A stretch of DNA of 64,000 bases, taken from assembly GCA_003104975.1 (NCBI GenBank), contig PQAM01000010.1:62001-126000 (forward strand), read 5' to 3'. This DNA is from Candidatus Methylomirabilota bacterium (GTDB lineage: Bacteria; Methylomirabilota; Methylomirabilia; Methylomirabilales; Methylomirabilaceae). The position numbers and the translations under genes are program-made. Position 1 is the first letter of the stretch, and every line of letters starts with the position of its first letter. This document shows positions 40,131 through 48,199 of this stretch, piece by piece. Under the pieces are notes generated by a model. It was not told the DNA's origin. It saw only the letters and a program-made list of their open reading frames with translations, and made no database searches.

Positions 40131-40449
40131 CGAGTGTTCCTCCTCAAAGAGGATAGTCCGACCCGATCGGGACACCCCAACACGCAGGGTCACTCGGGGA
40201 AGCAGAGCTATCCCGACCGATTTGAACGTCAGGGCAACTGACTTACTGACCGAAGGCCAGTGTAGTATCCCAAACACTTCTTGACTTCATTTCCGAGGCC
40301 GTCATTCCCGCAAAAGCGGGAATCCAAAACTCCCGTTATTTCCTGGATTCCGGCTCGCGCCCGCGATGCGGCCCCCGACCTGATCGGGGGCAGAATGACG
40401 TCCGAAAATAGGCAACGAATTTCAGAAACAGGACTCTAGAATGATTTCA
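40131..40449. repeat. Intergenic region with a dispersed palindromic repeat (40300-40399)
   Basis: No gene is seen. GTCATTCCCGCAAAAGCGGGAATCCA begins at 40300, and TGGATTCCGGC begins at 40343 with the closing AGAATGAC at 40392-40399; the outer and inner parts are mirror images. A further hairpin, GCCCCCGACC-TGATC-GGGGGC, is embedded at 40371-40391. It separates the metal-import operon from the His-rich membrane protein gene. No promoter was assigned. Confidence 0.7.
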
Positions 40450-40957: not shown

Positions 40958-40982
40958 GGTAAAACTGACAGGTAAAACTGAC
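40958..40982 (-). promoter_or_regulatory. Tandem 12-base direct repeat abutting the -35 box
   Basis: GGTAAAACTGAC occurs at 40958-40969 and again at 40971-40982, one base apart. The period is 13 bases, and the repeat ends directly next to the -35 box of the promoter. The position and identity suggest an operator for a regulator that binds direct repeats. Confidence 0.65.
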
Positions 40983-41092
40983 TCCCACGAAACAGCCGGC
41001 TGCACTTTGGGCTTGACCTCCACCCGATCAGGGCATTACCATCGTGCTGCTTCAACGGTGCCTCCTGTGCTGCGCAAGAGGAGGATACGGAG

Positions 41093-41176
41093 ATGGCGGT
41101 CGGCGGGGTTCCGCATCCGAGCCAGATCAGCGTTCAGGTGAAGGAATACGTATGTACGGCCCTTTGGGGCAAGTGA
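41093..41176 (+). CDS. Possible 27-residue leader peptide
   Basis: ATG at 41093 follows AGAGGAGGATACGG, a strong binding site, and the frame ends at TGA 41174-41176. The peptide is MAVGGVPHPSQISV... and contains one Cys. Its last codons form the left arm of a 14-base-pair hairpin. It could be a leader or attenuator, or the remnant of a decayed gene. Confidence 0.35.
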   Translation: MAVGGVPHPSQISVQVKEYVCTALWGK

Positions 41177-41190
41177 GCCCTGAAGGGCCG
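41157..41190 (+). terminator. Long hairpin upstream of the lipoprotein module
   Basis: CGGCCCTTTGGGGC, six-base loop AAGTGA, GCCCTGAAGGGCCG: 14 pairs including two G-T pairs. It is followed by TCGTATTTTC, only partly T-rich. Either a weak terminator or an attenuator structure. Confidence 0.5.
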
Positions 41191-41319
41191 TCGTATTTTC
41201 AGGAGCTACAGTCTGATCCTTAGAAAGCCCGGAACGTCCGCCTATGCGCAGGAAGTTCAGCAATTCGAATGTACTGATCAGCATACGGAGTTGGGGTTCG
41301 GCTCGAGGGCGATGATCAC

Positions 41320-41742
41320 GTGATAGAAGTGCTATTATCCGCGGGTTCGGTTATAGCGATTGATCAGTCGAGCAAGAAGATGATTGTGAGGCTTCTTGTG
41401 AAAGGGCAGTTCCTCTCGCTAGGACCACTGCTGCGGCTCAGGTGCGTCACAAATTCGAGAGGGAGCGCGGGAATTATAAGAAACCGGCTTGCGTGGTTGC
41501 TGCTGTGGGGACTGACTGCTCTCAGCCTTATGATTCTGGTTCAGTATGGGCCATTCTTCGGGAATCACGTTGCTCGCGTGGGTCTCGGCGCAGCTCTCGG
41601 CGGTGCAACCAGCAACGTCCTTGACAGACTTAGCCGCGGGGCCGTGATTGACTTCATTGACATTGGCTTCCGGCGTGTATTCAACCTGGCGGATATTGCT
41701 ATCGTCTCGGGCGTGACAATCGCCTTCTGGTTCATGCGTTAA
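41320..41742 (+). CDS. LspA-like signal peptidase II paralogue
   Basis: A 140-residue membrane protein with four helices, matching lipoprotein signal peptidase. The N-terminal DQSSKKMIV, VTNSRGSAG and GGATSNVLDRLSRGAVIDFIDIGFRRVFNLADIAI are all present, including the two catalytic aspartates (in VIDF and FNLAD). It is slightly short for LspA (usually 150-170) and diverges in GGAxGN, which is GGATSN here. The start is GTG, preceded by GAGGG. It is followed after 62 bases by an Lgt-like gene and then by two lipoprotein genes, so it is probably dedicated to local substrates rather than the housekeeping enzyme. Confidence 0.83.
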   Translation: MIEVLLSAGSVIAIDQSSKKMIVRLLVKGQFLSLGPLLRLRCVTNSRGSAGIIRNRLAWLLLWGLTALSLMILVQYGPFFGNHVARVGLGAALGGATSNVLDRLSRGAVIDFIDIGFRRVFNLADIAIVSGVTIAFWFMR

Positions 41743-41804
41743 TCGCTTCCCTTAGACTGGTATCGAGGGGTCAATCGCTCTGATGAGGCAATCGGGAGGC
41801 TGGA

Positions 41805-42542
41805 ATGCGACGCGTTCTATGGCGCTGGCGGACAATTACGATTTATAGTTACCCCGCAATGCAGTATCTTGGACTGGTCTTCGGGATTGTTGGGGGAAAT
41901 TATGCGGCTAATCGGGCTGGGTTGAACTCGGCTGCCATCTTTTTGGCGACGTTCTTATTGCTTGTTCCGGCTCTGGTTGGAGCGAGGCTGTGGCATGTGG
42001 CCTTACATTGGAAAACCTACCGTCGGGCACCCGCGCGGATCTGGCGTCGCTCAGAAGGCGGCATGGCGATGTATGGTGGTTTGCCGTTCGCCTTGTTGAC
42101 CTCCGTGCCGCTGCTCAGCTTCCTTCGACTGTCCTTCGGAGCCTTCTGGGACGTGGCGACCTTCACCATTTTGATCGGGATGATCTGTGGCCGCATTGGG
42201 TGTCTATTGAACGGCTGCTGTAGTGGCCGACCGACCGAAGGACGCTTGGCCCTCTATCTCCCCGATCATCGCGGCATATGGAAACGGCGCATCCCAACTC
42301 AAGTGTTGGATGCGGGATGGGCAATGTTGCTCCTGGTCGGGGCCGTTGGGTTATCGAGTCGGCTGCCCTTTCCCGGTGCGCTGTTCCTGTACTGTCTGGC
42401 CGGTTATGGCATCGGGCGCTTAGGTTTGGAGTCTACCCGTGAGCAACAGAATAAAGTGGGGACACTGTCTATCAATCACGTGATCTCGGCGGCCATAGTC
42501 GGACTGGCCGCAACAGCTTTTGTGGTGGTGTGGTACAGATAG
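41805..42542 (+). CDS. Lgt-like prolipoprotein diacylglyceryl transferase paralogue
   Basis: A 245-residue polytopic protein of the Lgt family, with about seven helices. Family motifs are GGMAMYGGLPFALL (normally GG-x-x-HGG) and CGRIGCLLNGCCSGRPTEG (normally GRxGNFxNGExxGxPT). The arginine of GRIG is kept, but the histidine essential in E. coli Lgt (H103) is Tyr here, and Asn/Glu positions are replaced by Cys-Cys. It may therefore use a modified mechanism or lipid. It lies between the LspA-like gene and the two lipoprotein genes on the same strand. Confidence 0.8.
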   Translation: MRRVLWRWRTITIYSYPAMQYLGLVFGIVGGNYAANRAGLNSAAIFLATFLLLVPALVGARLWHVALHWKTYRRAPARIWRRSEGGMAMYGGLPFALLTSVPLLSFLRLSFGAFWDVATFTILIGMICGRIGCLLNGCCSGRPTEGRLALYLPDHRGIWKRRIPTQVLDAGWAMLLLVGAVGLSSRLPFPGALFLYCLAGYGIGRLGLESTREQQNKVGTLSINHVISAAIVGLAATAFVVVWYR

Positions 42543-42610
42543 AAGCGATATCACCTGAAAAGGGAATCATGATGAATTGGTTGCTATTGCAGACATGAGG
42601 AATACACCTA

Positions 42611-43072
42611 ATGGATTGGTTTACAATATTGACACCTCTGCTCGTACTGCCTATCGTGATCCTTTTCGTTTTTATCGGCTGTACCTTAAACGAATCTCCA
42701 CTGCTTGGGGTTCCTCCCGTGCCTGTACCGTATCAAGTCTCTTTCGTCGTCAGATTTCATCCCTCGCTCGCTGAACCGGGCGTCACTGAGTTCATTGTAC
42801 TCATAAACATCACTCCAGAGGATGGAGACGTAATCCCATTGTATAAGGATGGTGCCCCAGACGATACCCAAGAGGATCAATGGTACCTATACGAGCTCGA
42901 GACGGAATTGAGTACTGGAATATACACAGTCCAGTGCACCGTATTACCCGGCAACGCTGTAGGCCAAATCATTGGGTCCGGGCCTTGCACTCTGATGGTT
43001 GACGGCGATCGCCAAGTCTCTTTTGATGCCGCGGCAGGAGCCGAAATGTTGACTGTAACCGGATGCGAGTGA
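42611..43072 (+). CDS. Lipoprotein with an atypical signal, paralogue 1
   Basis: A 153-residue protein. Residues 1-24, MDWFTILTPLLVLPIVILFV then FIGC, form a hydrophobic signal without any Lys or Arg, with an acidic residue near the start, ending in a lipobox-like FIGC (Cys24). Normal lipoboxes have Leu at -3; here it is Phe. The mature part is beta-rich, with cysteines in SGPCTLMVDGDRQVSFD and the final VTGCE, which could form a disulfide. A paralogue follows 19 bases downstream. The binding site TGAGGA lies 11 bases before the ATG. Function unknown. Confidence 0.75.
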   Translation: MDWFTILTPLLVLPIVILFVFIGCTLNESPLLGVPPVPVPYQVSFVVRFHPSLAEPGVTEFIVLINITPEDGDVIPLYKDGAPDDTQEDQWYLYELETELSTGIYTVQCTVLPGNAVGQIIGSGPCTLMVDGDRQVSFDAAAGAEMLTVTGCE

Positions 43073-43091
43073 GTGACAAGGAGCCGAAATA

Positions 43092-43568
43092 ATGATCGAC
43101 TGGTTCGTGCTGCTCACACCATTTTTGTTGGTGCCTATTGTGTTGCTCTTCAGCTTTGTCGGTTGTACGGCCCAATTGGGAGGGGCCGTTAGTCCCCTTC
43201 CAAAGGTGACCATGAATTTCAGATATGAAATTGCGGATATTGCTGAACAACCGCAGGTGGTTTTCAGTTGGACCATTGATGAGGAGGCTGCGGACCCGGT
43301 TCCCCTGATGGACCCAGCACCAGATCCGGAATCAGCGGGAGTGAACCTGTTTCGACACGCTATCGAAGGAGCGAGGCCAGGGGAGTGGGTAGTGCGGTGC
43401 CGTTTTTTGACCCTTGCGCAGGACGGAACTTGGCAAGGGTGGGGAGAAGCGATTTGCCCATTTCCAGTTGAGGGAATCAAAGAGTACAAGGTTTCATTCG
43501 AGCTTGGCCGGCTTGATGATGGTGGATTTGAAGTTCGGTCGAGTGTTGGGGGGTGCCCCGATTCATAA
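43092..43568 (+). CDS. Lipoprotein with an atypical signal, paralogue 2
   Basis: A 158-residue paralogue of the preceding protein. Its N-terminus, MIDWFVLLTPFLLVPIVLLF then SFVGC, shares DWFxxLTPxLxxPIVxLF with it, again without basic residues and with Phe at -3 of the lipobox (Cys25). The mature domain repeats the same plan, including AICPFPVEGIKEYKVSFE and a terminal GGCPDS. Strong binding site AAGGAG before the ATG. The mature domain is probably a beta-sandwich anchored by lipid. Function unknown. Confidence 0.75.
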   Translation: MIDWFVLLTPFLLVPIVLLFSFVGCTAQLGGAVSPLPKVTMNFRYEIADIAEQPQVVFSWTIDEEAADPVPLMDPAPDPESAGVNLFRHAIEGARPGEWVVRCRFLTLAQDGTWQGWGEAICPFPVEGIKEYKVSFELGRLDDGGFEVRSSVGGCPDS

Positions 43569-43652
43569 GCGACTGGCATCAAGACTGCCAGACAAGTCCA
43601 GTGCTGAAAGCGCGACATTAGAAGGGCGGGCACGTGAAAGGGGACGGTTGAG

Positions 43653-46382
43653 ATGGCTAATGCATTAACGGGCGAATTTGATGTCGTTGCCGAGTTCGGC
43701 ATGCAGGCCGTGAATCGTGTCCTTGCCGTTCAGCACCAGGGTCAGGATCCCCAGGTGTATTTCCACACCTTTGCTATAAGAATTGACGATGCTGAAACGG
43801 CGGTGCGGGGGACCGCGCAGATTCAAGTGTCGACTCCCACAGTAACACTCCCGGCGGGCGAGAATGCGTCGAAGATCACGATCCACTGTCAGCTTATGGC
43901 GTACATGGCGGCAAGTCACGACAGTGCTGCCGTGCCAGAATTTGTCCACGGCGAGATAGCGGTGACGCTTGACGTGGTACAGACCACCTCTGAGACGGAG
44001 AACGTCATTGCGATCGATTTTGGCGCTGACGACCTGGAAGTCACATTCACCCCGGATCCTGGTGCCGGCTCGGAAGAGGGTGATGGCGTTGCCTTATCTG
44101 ACGAGGAGACGAATCTCGTCAATCAAATCATCCGTGAGATTGTGAGGACCGGCTTCGAGCCCGTGAATGCCGTTGTGAGGTTGCCGGCACGGGGGGAGCC
44201 GCTCCGCGTTCATCATTGGCGGTTCAGGACGATGCCCGACGATCAGCAACCGGCGGTTGCTGTACTGCTGAATGTGACGGATCAGGCGCCTTCCCCGGAA
44301 GACCTCGCCGGGGTTACCGAGGTGTTTCTACAGGAGGCGGATGACTTCGCCATCGCTATTGGCCGGGATTTCCTCGTCGCAACCCTGCTTGACGTCATGC
44401 GAGACAGGCTGCCGCGCAGCATCATAGGTACCGCAAGGATAGGGTTCTGGATATTTGGTGTAACGGTCAACTACTCTGTGAGCTTAGACCTGGACAGCGT
44501 GCGCGTGGAACTGGGCGAGGGACGAATTCGGCTGAGCGTTGGCGGCGAGCTGACGGTTAACAACCGTGGCGGCACATTTACGGTGACCCAAGATTTCAGG
44601 CTGAACGCGGACGGAGACAACATCAGTCTTGATGCGCCCGACGACCCGCATGTGGACCTGGACCTCAACCTCCCTTTCTTTTTGGAATTCGCTGAGGGAC
44701 GCGTTACTGACGAAATGGTGGGGAGAGTGCGCACGGCACGCGATCAGATCCTTCGGGATGCCGGCCCTTTGGTGGGGGGCCCGCCGGCGGCATTTCGCGA
44801 TATTCTTCCAGGCTTGCGAACCCCCGACCCCACTGTGATCTATATGGCGACTGAGATCCAATCTGAGGGCGTAATCGTGCGGGGCGCGCTGGACTTTGGG
44901 CCGTGGCAGGACGTAGTTGCCACCTTTGAAACGATATCCACCTGGCCCTCTCGGACACCAGTATTGTTGATTCGCATTGGGTTGACGTTCCAGGATGATC
45001 TGGAACAGGGAGTTCTTTCGCAAGAGTTCCGGAGAGTACTAGAGGAACTCCAGGGCTTTCCCCCTTCAGATCACCCTGCCATTATCACAGAGGAGGAAGG
45101 CAATCGATGGCGGATAGATGATCTCGGTAAGACATACCTTGTCATCAGGGCAGGTGAAGCGCTCAACCTATACAATTCAGTTGATCCAAGCGCGATCGAT
45201 TATGAGTTCAACGCCCTTAACAGTTGGATCCCCGGCGGTACCGTCCGGCGATTTCGATGGGTGCATGGGAGTGAGGAGCGAGTTGAACAAGAGATCGTAA
45301 AGGCACACCAGTTCATCGCTCGATTTATCGGTCGCTTAGGTGGAGAGATTGGGGAAAATGGACTCCAGCCGCTACGGTGGTGCCTGGAAGTGTCGGGGGT
45401 TCAAGGCGCTCCGCCAAGGGACGTGTCGGGCTGGTCGTGTGGTATCGGTGCACCGGCGGTGGGCCCTGGACTGCTTGAGGAAGTCGGAGGCGGTGGGTTT
45501 GTCGTCGAGGTCCCGGACTCCGAAGGCGGCGTCGTTGCACACATCGAGGTGTGGCCGCCGAAGTTGCGGCCAGGTGGGCCTCGACCGCGACATCCCTTCG
45601 GAGCACATCTACTCGTGCACTTCTCAGGCTCTCCGTCGACCTCAACCTGGCCGGTATTGCGCGATGCCTTGGTTGCGCGGAGACGGAAGGACTCCGCCGT
45701 GTTTGTGATCGCAGTCGTGCCGCGGGGGCTGCGTGTACAGCCGTTGAGGGCGGATGCCAACGTAGGGTGGGCCAGAACTGAGGATGCTGAGGGGGGTTGG
45801 GCGAAGGCCTTTCGCGTGACGGAGACGCCAGTGACGTTCCTGGTGAATCCCCAGGGCAAGACCGTATGGCAGCAGGTCGGCCCATTAGAGGTCGCTTCTC
45901 TCAAAGCCGTCTTCGACGAACACCTCGTGGCGGGAAGGCCGCTCCGCTGGCAGCAACGTCATTTGAAGGTGCGAGTCGGCCAGCCCGCTCCCGACTTCAT
46001 CTTTGAGTATCTGAAGGGTCAGTGGATCGCGCTTCGTAGGTTACGCCGACGACCCGTGCTCCTGAACTTCTGGAAATCCTGGTCTGAGCCATGCCTGGCC
46101 GAGCTGCGGCATCTTCAGAAACTGTATGATCGATTCGCTCGCGATGGTTGGGTTATTCTGGCCATCAACGATGAAAAAGATTCACACCGCACTCGGGAGC
46201 TGTTGAAGGAAAACGGTTTCACCTTCAATTTTGTTGCGGATACAGACCGGCGCATCGCCCGGTTATTCGGCGTGAATTGTTGGCCCACAACCGTATCGAT
46301 CAATGAGGCAGGATTTGTCCACCGCATCCAATTCGGCGTGACGCCGGGCAAAAGGGGATATCGGGGATCTGTGCATACGTAA
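43653..46382 (+). CDS. Large protein with two degenerate thioredoxin-like domains at its C-terminus
   Basis: A 909-residue protein without a signal peptide. The first 600 residues are beta-rich with amphipathic strands and repeated acidic loops (for example FGVTVNYSVSLDLDSVRVELGEGRIRLSVGG). The overall look recalls TULIP-type lipid-binding proteins, but I cannot support that by a motif. Residues about 645-770 look like a thioredoxin fold that has lost its cysteines (LLVHFSGSPSTS... TPVTFLVNPQGKTVW). Residues 774-909 are a TlpA/AhpC-TSA-type domain (RVGQPAPDFIFEYLKG) with SEPC (Cys814) instead of CxxC and a cis-Pro loop CWPT (876-879). It is the last gene of the lipoprotein module. Confidence 0.7.
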   Translation: MANALTGEFDVVAEFGMQAVNRVLAVQHQGQDPQVYFHTFAIRIDDAETAVRGTAQIQVSTPTVTLPAGENASKITIHCQLMAYMAASHDSAAVPEFVHGEIAVTLDVVQTTSETENVIAIDFGADDLEVTFTPDPGAGSEEGDGVALSDEETNLVNQIIREIVRTGFEPVNAVVRLPARGEPLRVHHWRFRTMPDDQQPAVAVLLNVTDQAPSPEDLAGVTEVFLQEADDFAIAIGRDFLVATLLDVMRDRLPRSIIGTARIGFWIFGVTVNYSVSLDLDSVRVELGEGRIRLSVGGELTVNNRGGTFTVTQDFRLNADGDNISLDAPDDPHVDLDLNLPFFLEFAEGRVTDEMVGRVRTARDQILRDAGPLVGGPPAAFRDILPGLRTPDPTVIYMATEIQSEGVIVRGALDFGPWQDVVATFETISTWPSRTPVLLIRIGLTFQDDLEQGVLSQEFRRVLEELQGFPPSDHPAIITEEEGNRWRIDDLGKTYLVIRAGEALNLYNSVDPSAIDYEFNALNSWIPGGTVRRFRWVHGSEERVEQEIVKAHQFIARFIGRLGGEIGENGLQPLRWCLEVSGVQGAPPRDVSGWSCGIGAPAVGPGLLEEVGGGGFVVEVPDSEGGVVAHIEVWPPKLRPGGPRPRHPFGAHLLVHFSGSPSTSTWPVLRDALVARRRKDSAVFVIAVVPRGLRVQPLRADANVGWARTEDAEGGWAKAFRVTETPVTFLVNPQGKTVWQQVGPLEVASLKAVFDEHLVAGRPLRWQQRHLKVRVGQPAPDFIFEYLKGQWIALRRLRRRPVLLNFWKSWSEPCLAELRHLQKLYDRFARDGWVILAINDEKDSHRTRELLKENGFTFNFVADTDRRIARLFGVNCWPTTVSINEAGFVHRIQFGVTPGKRGYRGSVHT

Positions 46383-46456
46383 GGGGAGCCGCGGTACACC
46401 ACCACCTGACCAACCTGAGTGTGTCGAAAGCTGATCCGCGTACTTTCATGATGGGC

Positions 46457-47983
46457 TTAGAACTGGACTTGCAGTTCGGCGATCCCTTGATGGGCGACAC
46501 CGCCGTCCTCGGCATTGCTCAATCCGACCGCATTGCTGTGCGGGCTGAGGTTGGTGACGATATAGTTGCCCCGCAGGCGGACGTTGTGGTTGATATACCA
46601 GTTCAGACCGATGGTACCGGAGCGCAACTCCATCGGTCGCTCGTTAGCGGCCGTCACCGGCGACGTAAATGTACCCTTGTTATCATCGATGCGGACATGC
46701 TCATAGCGGCCGTTGACCAGCAGGCCCTTCAGCTTGTTGCCGAAGACCCAGTAGCCGATCGACCCATACCCGCCCTGCATGATGAGGTTATCGAGGTTTC
46801 CGTCTCCGGCGCCCAGGCCGTCACGTTCCTGGGAGGCGTAGGCGTACTCGCCCTTGATGACGAACGGGTAGAGGTCGAAGACGATATCGCCGCCGCCGGT
46901 GACCCGATTGCCGTTGATCAAGAAGCCGTTCTGCGTCCCGCCTTCGCCGTTGCCGGCCAGCCTGACATTCGTCGGGCCGACCGGATTGAAGCGGTGAAAC
47001 GGCGAACCGCCCCCGACCGGTCTCGTCACCCCCGCGGGATCGGTGGCGCCATTGCCTCGTACGACCCGAAAGGTGCGGTGATCGGCATTCAGACCGATGG
47101 TGAGCGTCCCAACGGGGACCGGCGGTGCAAAGGTCACGCGGCCGGTGAACTCCTTATCGCCGTCGTTGTCGATGCTGTTGGGGCACTGGTCGACCCGGCC
47201 GCAGCCGTTATAGATCCCCACCCCGTAGTAGACCGGTACGGCAGCAAGCTTCAGGTTGCCCTCGACGGTGGCGCCGACTTGATATTCCGGGGACAATGCC
47301 CGTGAAATCACCGCCCGCTCGGCAAAGTCCAGGTCCCGTGACGAGGTGAGCATCTCGAGGCCGAATCGGGCCTTGTACTGTCCAAGGGTCACCTTCGCCC
47401 ACGGGGCGTATGTATAGTTGGCGTAGGCCTCCTCAAGCCGCGTACCGATGGAGCCGCCCGTAATCTCCGGCTCGATCAGAAAGCCGAAGTCCCTGAAGAC
47501 CTGGCCGCTGATGATCAGCCGGGTGCGGCGGATCCGAAAGGTGCTCGGATCGTGTCGCGCCAGCCCGGCTTTCGTCAGGTCTTGTCCATCGACGACGCCC
47601 GGGAATCCTTCCTCTTTCCGCGCCCCTTCAACGATGAACCAGTTCTGCATGAACCCACGCAGGCTGAGGCTGAACTGGCCATCAGCCGATTTCAGAAAGA
47701 ACCCCTTTCCGGGCACGGGGTCATATCCGGTCTGGAGGGAGGGCGCCGCAGCCTCCGCGGCCTGCTTCTCCACCTCCATCATACGTCGGGTCACCTCGTC
47801 CTGTTGCGTGGTGCGCTCCTGCCGCAGCCGCTGCATCTCCTGCCGTAACTGCTGCAACGACCGCTGCTGCGCCTCAAAGGCCTGCTCCAGCTCGGTGAGC
47901 TTGTCGGCCCACGCCCCTACCGGGGCGAGCAGCAGGGCGCTGCCCAAAACGACACTACGAATCCATCGCCATCTTTGAGCCAT
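46457..47983 (-). CDS. OprO/OprP-type porin
   Basis: A 508-residue outer-membrane protein. The signal peptide ends near GAWAD. A coiled coil follows (ELEQAFEAQQRSLQQLRQEMQRLRQERTTQ), and the barrel matches the phosphate/pyrophosphate porin family: FRIRRTRLIISGQVFRDFGFLIEPEI, EEAYANYTYAPWAKVTLGQYKARFGLE and the C-terminal ELQVQF ending in Phe. The ATG at 47983 follows AGGGGG. It lies downstream of a PhnD-type binding-protein gene on the same strand (gap 216 bases), so both may serve uptake of an oxyanion. Confidence 0.83.
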   Translation of the reverse strand: MAQRWRWIRSVVLGSALLLAPVGAWADKLTELEQAFEAQQRSLQQLRQEMQRLRQERTTQQDEVTRRMMEVEKQAAEAAAPSLQTGYDPVPGKGFFLKSADGQFSLSLRGFMQNWFIVEGARKEEGFPGVVDGQDLTKAGLARHDPSTFRIRRTRLIISGQVFRDFGFLIEPEITGGSIGTRLEEAYANYTYAPWAKVTLGQYKARFGLEMLTSSRDLDFAERAVISRALSPEYQVGATVEGNLKLAAVPVYYGVGIYNGCGRVDQCPNSIDNDGDKEFTGRVTFAPPVPVGTLTIGLNADHRTFRVVRGNGATDPAGVTRPVGGGSPFHRFNPVGPTNVRLAGNGEGGTQNGFLINGNRVTGGGDIVFDLYPFVIKGEYAYASQERDGLGAGDGNLDNLIMQGGYGSIGYWVFGNKLKGLLVNGRYEHVRIDDNKGTFTSPVTAANERPMELRSGTIGLNWYINHNVRLRGNYIVTNLSPHSNAVGLSNAEDGGVAHQGIAELQVQF

Positions 47984-48199
47984 GATTCTTTTCCCCCTAC
48001 TTTTTAGGTGAACCGCTATGCTCCAAGGCGGGAGGTTAGCAGGTGCGCATTGTATCACCGACACTGCCGATCTGCCAAGCTATGACGCGAGACGGTCCGG
48101 CTCGTCTTATTGAATCGTCAGGCCAAACGCTTGTACGGATAGGTTGCGGCGGGCAAAACCTTTCAAGCTCGATCGGGTGAATCGAGCGGTCTGCTCGCG

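Follow-up and report, generated by a model that had tools for sequence, protein, structure and literature searches.

Accessory lipoprotein-processing enzymes have been described on mobile elements, where lgt2 and lit2 accompany copper resistance in Listeria and Enterococcus (PMC8275575) and lgt is carried on enterococcal copper islands (PMC4511184), and in the myxovirescin cluster, which includes LspA3 and LspA4 (reviewed in PMC8689077). A homologous sorting signal on unlike cargo, encoded beside its processing enzyme, is known from the GlyGly-CTERM/rhombosortase system (PMC3237569). A search of open papers, limited in extent, turned up no reported case of accessory lipoprotein enzymes with their own matched signal. 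Here we describe a five-gene block within a 64,000-nucleotide stretch from Candidatus Methylomirabilota bacterium (assembly GCA_003104975.1, contig PQAM01000010.1, positions 62,001 to 126,000; hereafter the window), which encodes homologues of the diacylglyceryl transferase Lgt and the signal peptidase LspA (Lgt2 and LspA2), two predicted lipoproteins (LP1 and LP2), and a 909-residue protein. We give roughly an even chance to the reading that the block was acquired as an accessory cassette for lipidation, with a preference for the two lipoproteins that it encodes. As in Listeria and Enterococcus, the lipoprotein-modifying enzymes are acquired second copies; however, the Lgt2 of those genera is canonical (His103, Asn146, and Glu151 in L077) and no matched private signal has been reported for it. 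LspA3 and LspA4 likewise represent extra LspA proteins tied to a particular gene cluster, but they are linked to antibiotic production and self-protection, whereas the present block contains no biosynthetic genes. Unlike the GlyGly-CTERM signal, the signal considered here is N-terminal, would make use of Lgt/LspA chemistry, and is known from two substrates in one genome.

A signal shared by two dissimilar proteins

LP1 (open reading frame [ORF] 3, window 42611..43072, + strand, 153 amino acids) consists of the signal MDWFTILTPLLVLPIVILFVFIGC (42611..42682, + strand, Cys24) and an orphan beta-rich domain with three Cys residues after the lipobox, and LP2 (ORF4, 43092..43568, + strand, 158 amino acids) consists of the signal MIDWFVLLTPFLLVPIVLLFSFVGC (43092..43166, + strand, Cys25) and a mature domain weakly similar to that of LP1, with three aligned Cys residues. 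As the initial annotation had described, the two signals share the pattern DWFxxLTPxLxxPIVxLF, contain an early Asp and no Lys or Arg, and end in F-I-G-C or F-V-G-C. Lys and Arg are absent before residue 48 of LP1 and residue 38 of LP2, no upstream start is present, and the positively charged n-region that is a feature of bacterial lipoproteins is absent from both. Among the host's own lipoprotein candidates, eight of nine carry Lys or Arg in the signal, a small sample drawn with a crude gene caller from stretches amounting to 464 kb. Compared with the lipobox pattern [LVI][ASTVI][GAS]C, positions -2 and -1 and the Cys fit in both proteins, whereas the Phe at -3 does not.

The two signals have 15 of 23 aligned residues in common and a local alignment score of 97, against 26.2 ± 5.1 for shuffled sequences (z = 14; none of 2000 shuffles reached 97). 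This likeness is not that of a recent duplication, because the codons differ at eight of the 15 shared residues and the two signals are 62% identical at the nucleotide level; judged from the codons, the shared signal reflects an old constraint. The mature parts score 39 against 28.4 ± 4.8 (z = 2.2; 79 of 2000 shuffles reached this value), and what aligns in them is the three Cys residues and a G-[IE]-[YW]-x-V-[QR]-C stretch. The earlier description of the two lipoproteins, with their near-identical signals, as paralogues needs amending for the mature domains, which are at best weakly paralogous. A pair of host lipoproteins displays the reverse pattern, with z = 12 for the signal and z = 105 for the mature part. 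If a specific partner recognises the signal, the signal should be better conserved than the cargo, as is the case here, and this sequence comparison, which was not available to the initial annotation, provides the strongest support for the idea of specialisation. Neither LP1 nor LP2 matched any family, and a protein search of ~85,000 genomes, which reaches close relatives only, returned no relatives of LP2. Structure models were poor (pLDDT [predicted local distance difference test] 49 and 36) and unusable, and a fold search was meaningless.

The signal is also private to the locus within its genome. When up to three mismatches were allowed, the 3.0 Mb genome contained the motif at just two places, in LP1 and LP2, with zero chance matches expected in the window. 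The other genomes searched, 94 from the class and 392 from Planctomycetota, did not contain it, and in viral contigs it gave antisense chance matches only, located in phage portal genes. Widespread occurrence of the signal without the paired enzymes, which would speak against a dedicated route, was thus not seen in any of these sets.

Accessory enzymes in an inserted block

All five ORFs (41320-46382) are present on the + strand in the order originally noted, separated by 62, 68, 19, and 84 bp. The first (41320..41742, + strand) encodes LspA2, a short lipoprotein signal peptidase homologue of 140 amino acids with a GTG start, which matches Peptidase_A8/LspA (PF01252) with 79.5 bits (cut-off 25) and falls below the NCBIfam equivalog cut-off (63.9 versus 73.95). 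When LspA2 was aligned with the housekeeping LspA and PDB 6ryo, both catalytic aspartates proved to be kept, as previously noted, in the motifs VIDFID and FNLAD. The second ORF (41805..42542, + strand) encodes Lgt2, a protein of 245 amino acids that matches LGT (PF01790) over profile positions 2-239 of 240 with 122.3 bits (cut-off 24.9) and shares ~29% identity with the canonical Lgt encoded elsewhere in the genome. Because this 99.99% complete genome contains a separate, full canonical lgt (C7:39440, 276 bits) and lspA (C8:234243, 149 bits), the pair in the window is accessory; it is not the housekeeping set, as it might have been had no other copies existed.

The block occupies ~5.48 kb (40969..46447) between flanks that are kept among 15 genomes of the same genus; it is bounded to the left by a znuA gene and a 138-residue ORF and to the right by a porin gene and metH. 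At the same place, genome G010 has ~99 bp, a near-empty site, while G013 has ~1.6 kb including a Fur-like gene and G006 has ~10 kb; insertions at the site between 40968 and 46448, and at its counterpart in L068 and L072, vary across the genus, with cargo that differs by species. None of the 14 same-genus genomes has the Lgt-like gene, the signal, or the 909-residue protein, and the CCC-type Lgt (defined below), the signal, and the N-terminal part of the 909-residue protein were found in none of the 94 other genomes of the class. Relative to the same-genus genomes the block is an insertion, and horizontal acquisition is the best explanation for it. A phage origin was rejected, as no meaningful PHROG match was obtained and the orphan parts have no phage, plasmid, or viral relatives, and a defence system was rejected in the absence of any PADLOC match.

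The initial annotation had pointed out that the essential His103 (E. coli numbering) of Lgt is replaced by Tyr in Lgt2 and that its GRxGN block reads GRIGC...NGCC; these replacements (H103Y, N146C, E151C, and Cys at 152) are indeed present. Compared with canonical Lgt (TIGR00544; E. coli Lgt, PDB 5azb/5azc), Lgt2 belongs to the same family over its whole length and keeps Y26, R143, N149, G154, Y235, R239, E243, and R246, but it lacks His103, Asn146, and Glu151 and scores 77.3 bits against an equivalog cut-off of 118.9. In E. coli Lgt, none of the substitutions H103A/N/Q/R/Y complements (PMC4728403), and H103Y and N146A inactivate the enzyme (PMC4728403, PMC13251419). By analogy with this one enzyme, Lgt2 would look dead or special, but the wider comparison says otherwise. 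Positions 103, 146, 151, and 152 are coupled among 89 homologues, of which 39 have His-Asn-Glu and 46 have non-His-Cys-Cys-Cys, leaving four that follow neither pattern, and 46 of 47 proteins with the three Cys residues carry a residue other than His at 103. We define the CCC class as proteins with Cys at 146, 151, and 152 and a non-His residue at 103, into which Lgt2 fits as Tyr-Cys-Cys-Cys. Replacement of H103 by Tyr, Trp, or Phe in other Lgts, and of N146 by Cys and E151 by Cys or Asp in distant Lgts, has been reported (PMC13251419), and these Cys-bearing distant enzymes, among them M. smegmatis MSMEG_5408 and the CCC proteins of Planctomycetota, share with Lgt2 the coupled replacements and the motif GRxGCxxxGCCxGxPT. 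A search of 392 Planctomycetota genomes detected the CCC motif in 48, with some chance matches among the hits. In 15 of 40 such genomes, which may be incomplete, a CCC protein is the sole PF01790 match (nine of the 15 with Tyr103, as in Lgt2); several more have CCC types only, and eight also have a canonical Lgt. As independent loss of the canonical gene through incompleteness in all 15 is unlikely, the CCC class most likely represents a working Lgt, and Lgt2, as a member, is probably active. Lgt2 differs from these enzymes in being a second Lgt that adjoins lspA and two lipoprotein genes. Since the class is widespread, serves as sole Lgt in 15 Planctomycetota genomes, and contains substitutions already reported, the unusual Tyr/GCC sequence does not serve as a sign of a specialised route, as had been proposed. 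Planctomycetota loci with a GRxGCxxxGCC Lgt and Tyr, Gln, or Leu at 103 include L090, L097, L107, L145, L146, and L150-L154, among others.

Phylogenetically, Lgt2 groups with six actinobacterial plasmid proteins (support 99/94, long branches) annotated as prolipoprotein diacylglyceryl transferase family proteins (WP_125911706.1, WP_303684606.1 neighbourhood). These CCC-type homologues (L075, L079-L083) are fused to an N-terminal ectodomain of ~110 residues, and they differ from Lgt2 in the replacements H103Q, Y26W, and E243F and in having no LspA partner seen. Their neighbours are mostly CopY-type regulators, M56/M48 peptidases, multicopper oxidases, CopC, and DUF305 proteins, with TlpA, CcdA, and Lnt also encoded at one locus. 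The combination of a CCC-type Lgt, a small ectodomain, and a TlpA-like protein is a suggestive parallel between these plasmids and the block described here. Homology between LP1 or LP2 and the actinobacterial ectodomain was tried and is not significant (hhalign probability 2.5%). Lgt homologues also occur in unannotated records filed as phage (H64-H81; from Listeria, Enterococcus, Staphylococcus, and faecal samples), where they may represent bacterial contamination or cargo genes.

The fifth ORF (43653..46382, + strand) encodes the 909-residue protein, present after the two lipoproteins as first noted. Its N-terminal ~650 residues are orphan, with no counterpart in other genomes of the class, plasmids, or phages, and no signal peptide was found. 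The C-terminus (residues 775-890) forms a ResA/TlpA-like domain (AhpC-TSA, 79.4 bits; matches to ResA in the PDB), which has WSEPC at residue 810 in place of WCEPC and so departs from the WCxPC active site of ResA/TlpA. The domain lacks its nucleophilic Cys and is probably redox-inactive. A second thioredoxin-like domain at residues 600-770 was rejected (z = 0.4), and no support was found for a TULIP-like N-terminus.

Several further features lie in or near the block. Upstream, a ~140 bp repeat at window positions 40298-40439 is dispersed through the genome in 20 or more copies (79-93% identical), has further copies across the genus, and folds better than its shuffles (z = -2.6). A non-coding element at 41012-41206 ends in a strong terminator-like hairpin of 15 pairs, matches an unrelated location in G013 (C34:39741-39938, L069) at ~70% identity, and has no Rfam match; it is possibly a small RNA or leader. 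To the right, positions 46457-48064 encode a phosphate-selective-porin-like protein, whose family is represented by several diverged copies both here and in related genomes.

A proposed pathway and its alternatives

In the pathway that we propose, an acquired accessory cassette would deliver Lgt2, LspA2, LP1, LP2, and the 909-residue protein together. LP1 and LP2 would enter the membrane by their charge-free N-terminal helix, the Cys that ends F-[IV]-G-C would receive diacylglycerol from Lgt2, and LspA2 would cleave before the lipidated Cys. The products would be a pair of small beta-domain lipoproteins with Cys residues, held at the outer membrane face of the cell's lipid bilayer. The DWFxxLTPxLxxPIV signal would be retained because the local enzymes recognise it, with processing that would be preferential and not necessarily exclusive, and the 909-residue protein would serve as a co-encoded partner with its probably redox-inactive ResA-like domain. 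The specialised lipidation route first suggested for this locus gains from the accessory status of the enzyme pair and from the private, constrained signal, and loses the odd Lgt as evidence. Several points weigh against it: the full module is known from one instance, so that specialisation rests on one locus; lipidation of LP1 and LP2 is a prediction from sequence, and the Phe at -3 of their lipobox is atypical; the activity of Lgt2 is judged from relatives at ~30% identity; the housekeeping Lgt and LspA may process LP1 and LP2 equally well; and the privacy of the signal applies to the genome, class, Planctomycetota, and viral sets searched.

The alternative that survives best, which we consider possible though doubtful, is that there is no specialisation: the second Lgt and LspA would be general-purpose enzymes, LP1 and LP2 ordinary lipoproteins that the housekeeping pair can process, and their shared signal a matter of common descent only. 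The role of the CCC-class Lgt as a general housekeeping enzyme in Planctomycetota and the frequency of second Lgts on plasmids are consistent with this, but a signal normally changes more quickly than the cargo behind it, a rule that the host pair follows, whereas LP1 and LP2 show the opposite, and the signal occurs in no other gene of the genome. Somewhat less probable still is a fully orthogonal route, in which the housekeeping pair would ignore the charge-free DWFxxLTPxLxxPIVxLFxFxGC signal and only the co-inherited CCC-class Lgt and short LspA would read it. We regard it as unlikely that LP1 and LP2 are not lipoproteins at all, with the helix acting as an uncleaved anchor that packs on the other LP protein, the enzymes, or the partner and is conserved through helix-helix contacts; the lack of Lys and Arg, the early Asp, two Pro residues in the helix, the Phe at -3, and a poor model in which the helix spans residues 4-29 and extends beyond the Cys all favour such an anchor, but Gly-Cys stands at the exact lipobox position in both proteins, invariant, beside an Lgt/LspA pair. 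Slightly less likely again is that Lgt2 is no transferase but a Cys-rich Lgt-fold membrane protein with a thiol or metal function, the redoxin-like 909-residue protein and copper-linked relatives then indicating redox or metal handling. In its favour are the closest tree neighbours of Lgt2, which have diverged at 103, 26, and 243, bear an ectodomain, and are surrounded by genes for CopY, M56 peptidase, multicopper oxidase, CopC, TlpA, CcdA, and Lnt; the presumed weak activity of a second mycobacterial Lgt with N146C (PMC13251419); and the inactivation of the E. coli enzyme described above. Against it, Lgt2 keeps Y26 and E243 as do the Planctomycetota sole-Lgt enzymes, the ResA-like domain has no nucleophilic Cys, the block contains no copper genes, and the tree branches are long.

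Should the preferential pairing of Lgt2 and LspA2 with LP1 and LP2 be true, the single route by which lipoprotein biogenesis normally handles every cargo would be divisible by signal sequence, like sortase/exosortase export. Independent of this pairing, the CCC class bears on the chemistry of Lgt, for which His103 has been proposed as the catalytic base and in which the change H103Y abolishes the activity of the E. coli enzyme. Many Planctomycetota have, as their sole detected Lgt, a member of this class that carries Tyr or Gln at 103 with three Cys residues nearby; with these natural enzymes the disputed role of His103, and whether it is a universal base, becomes directly testable.

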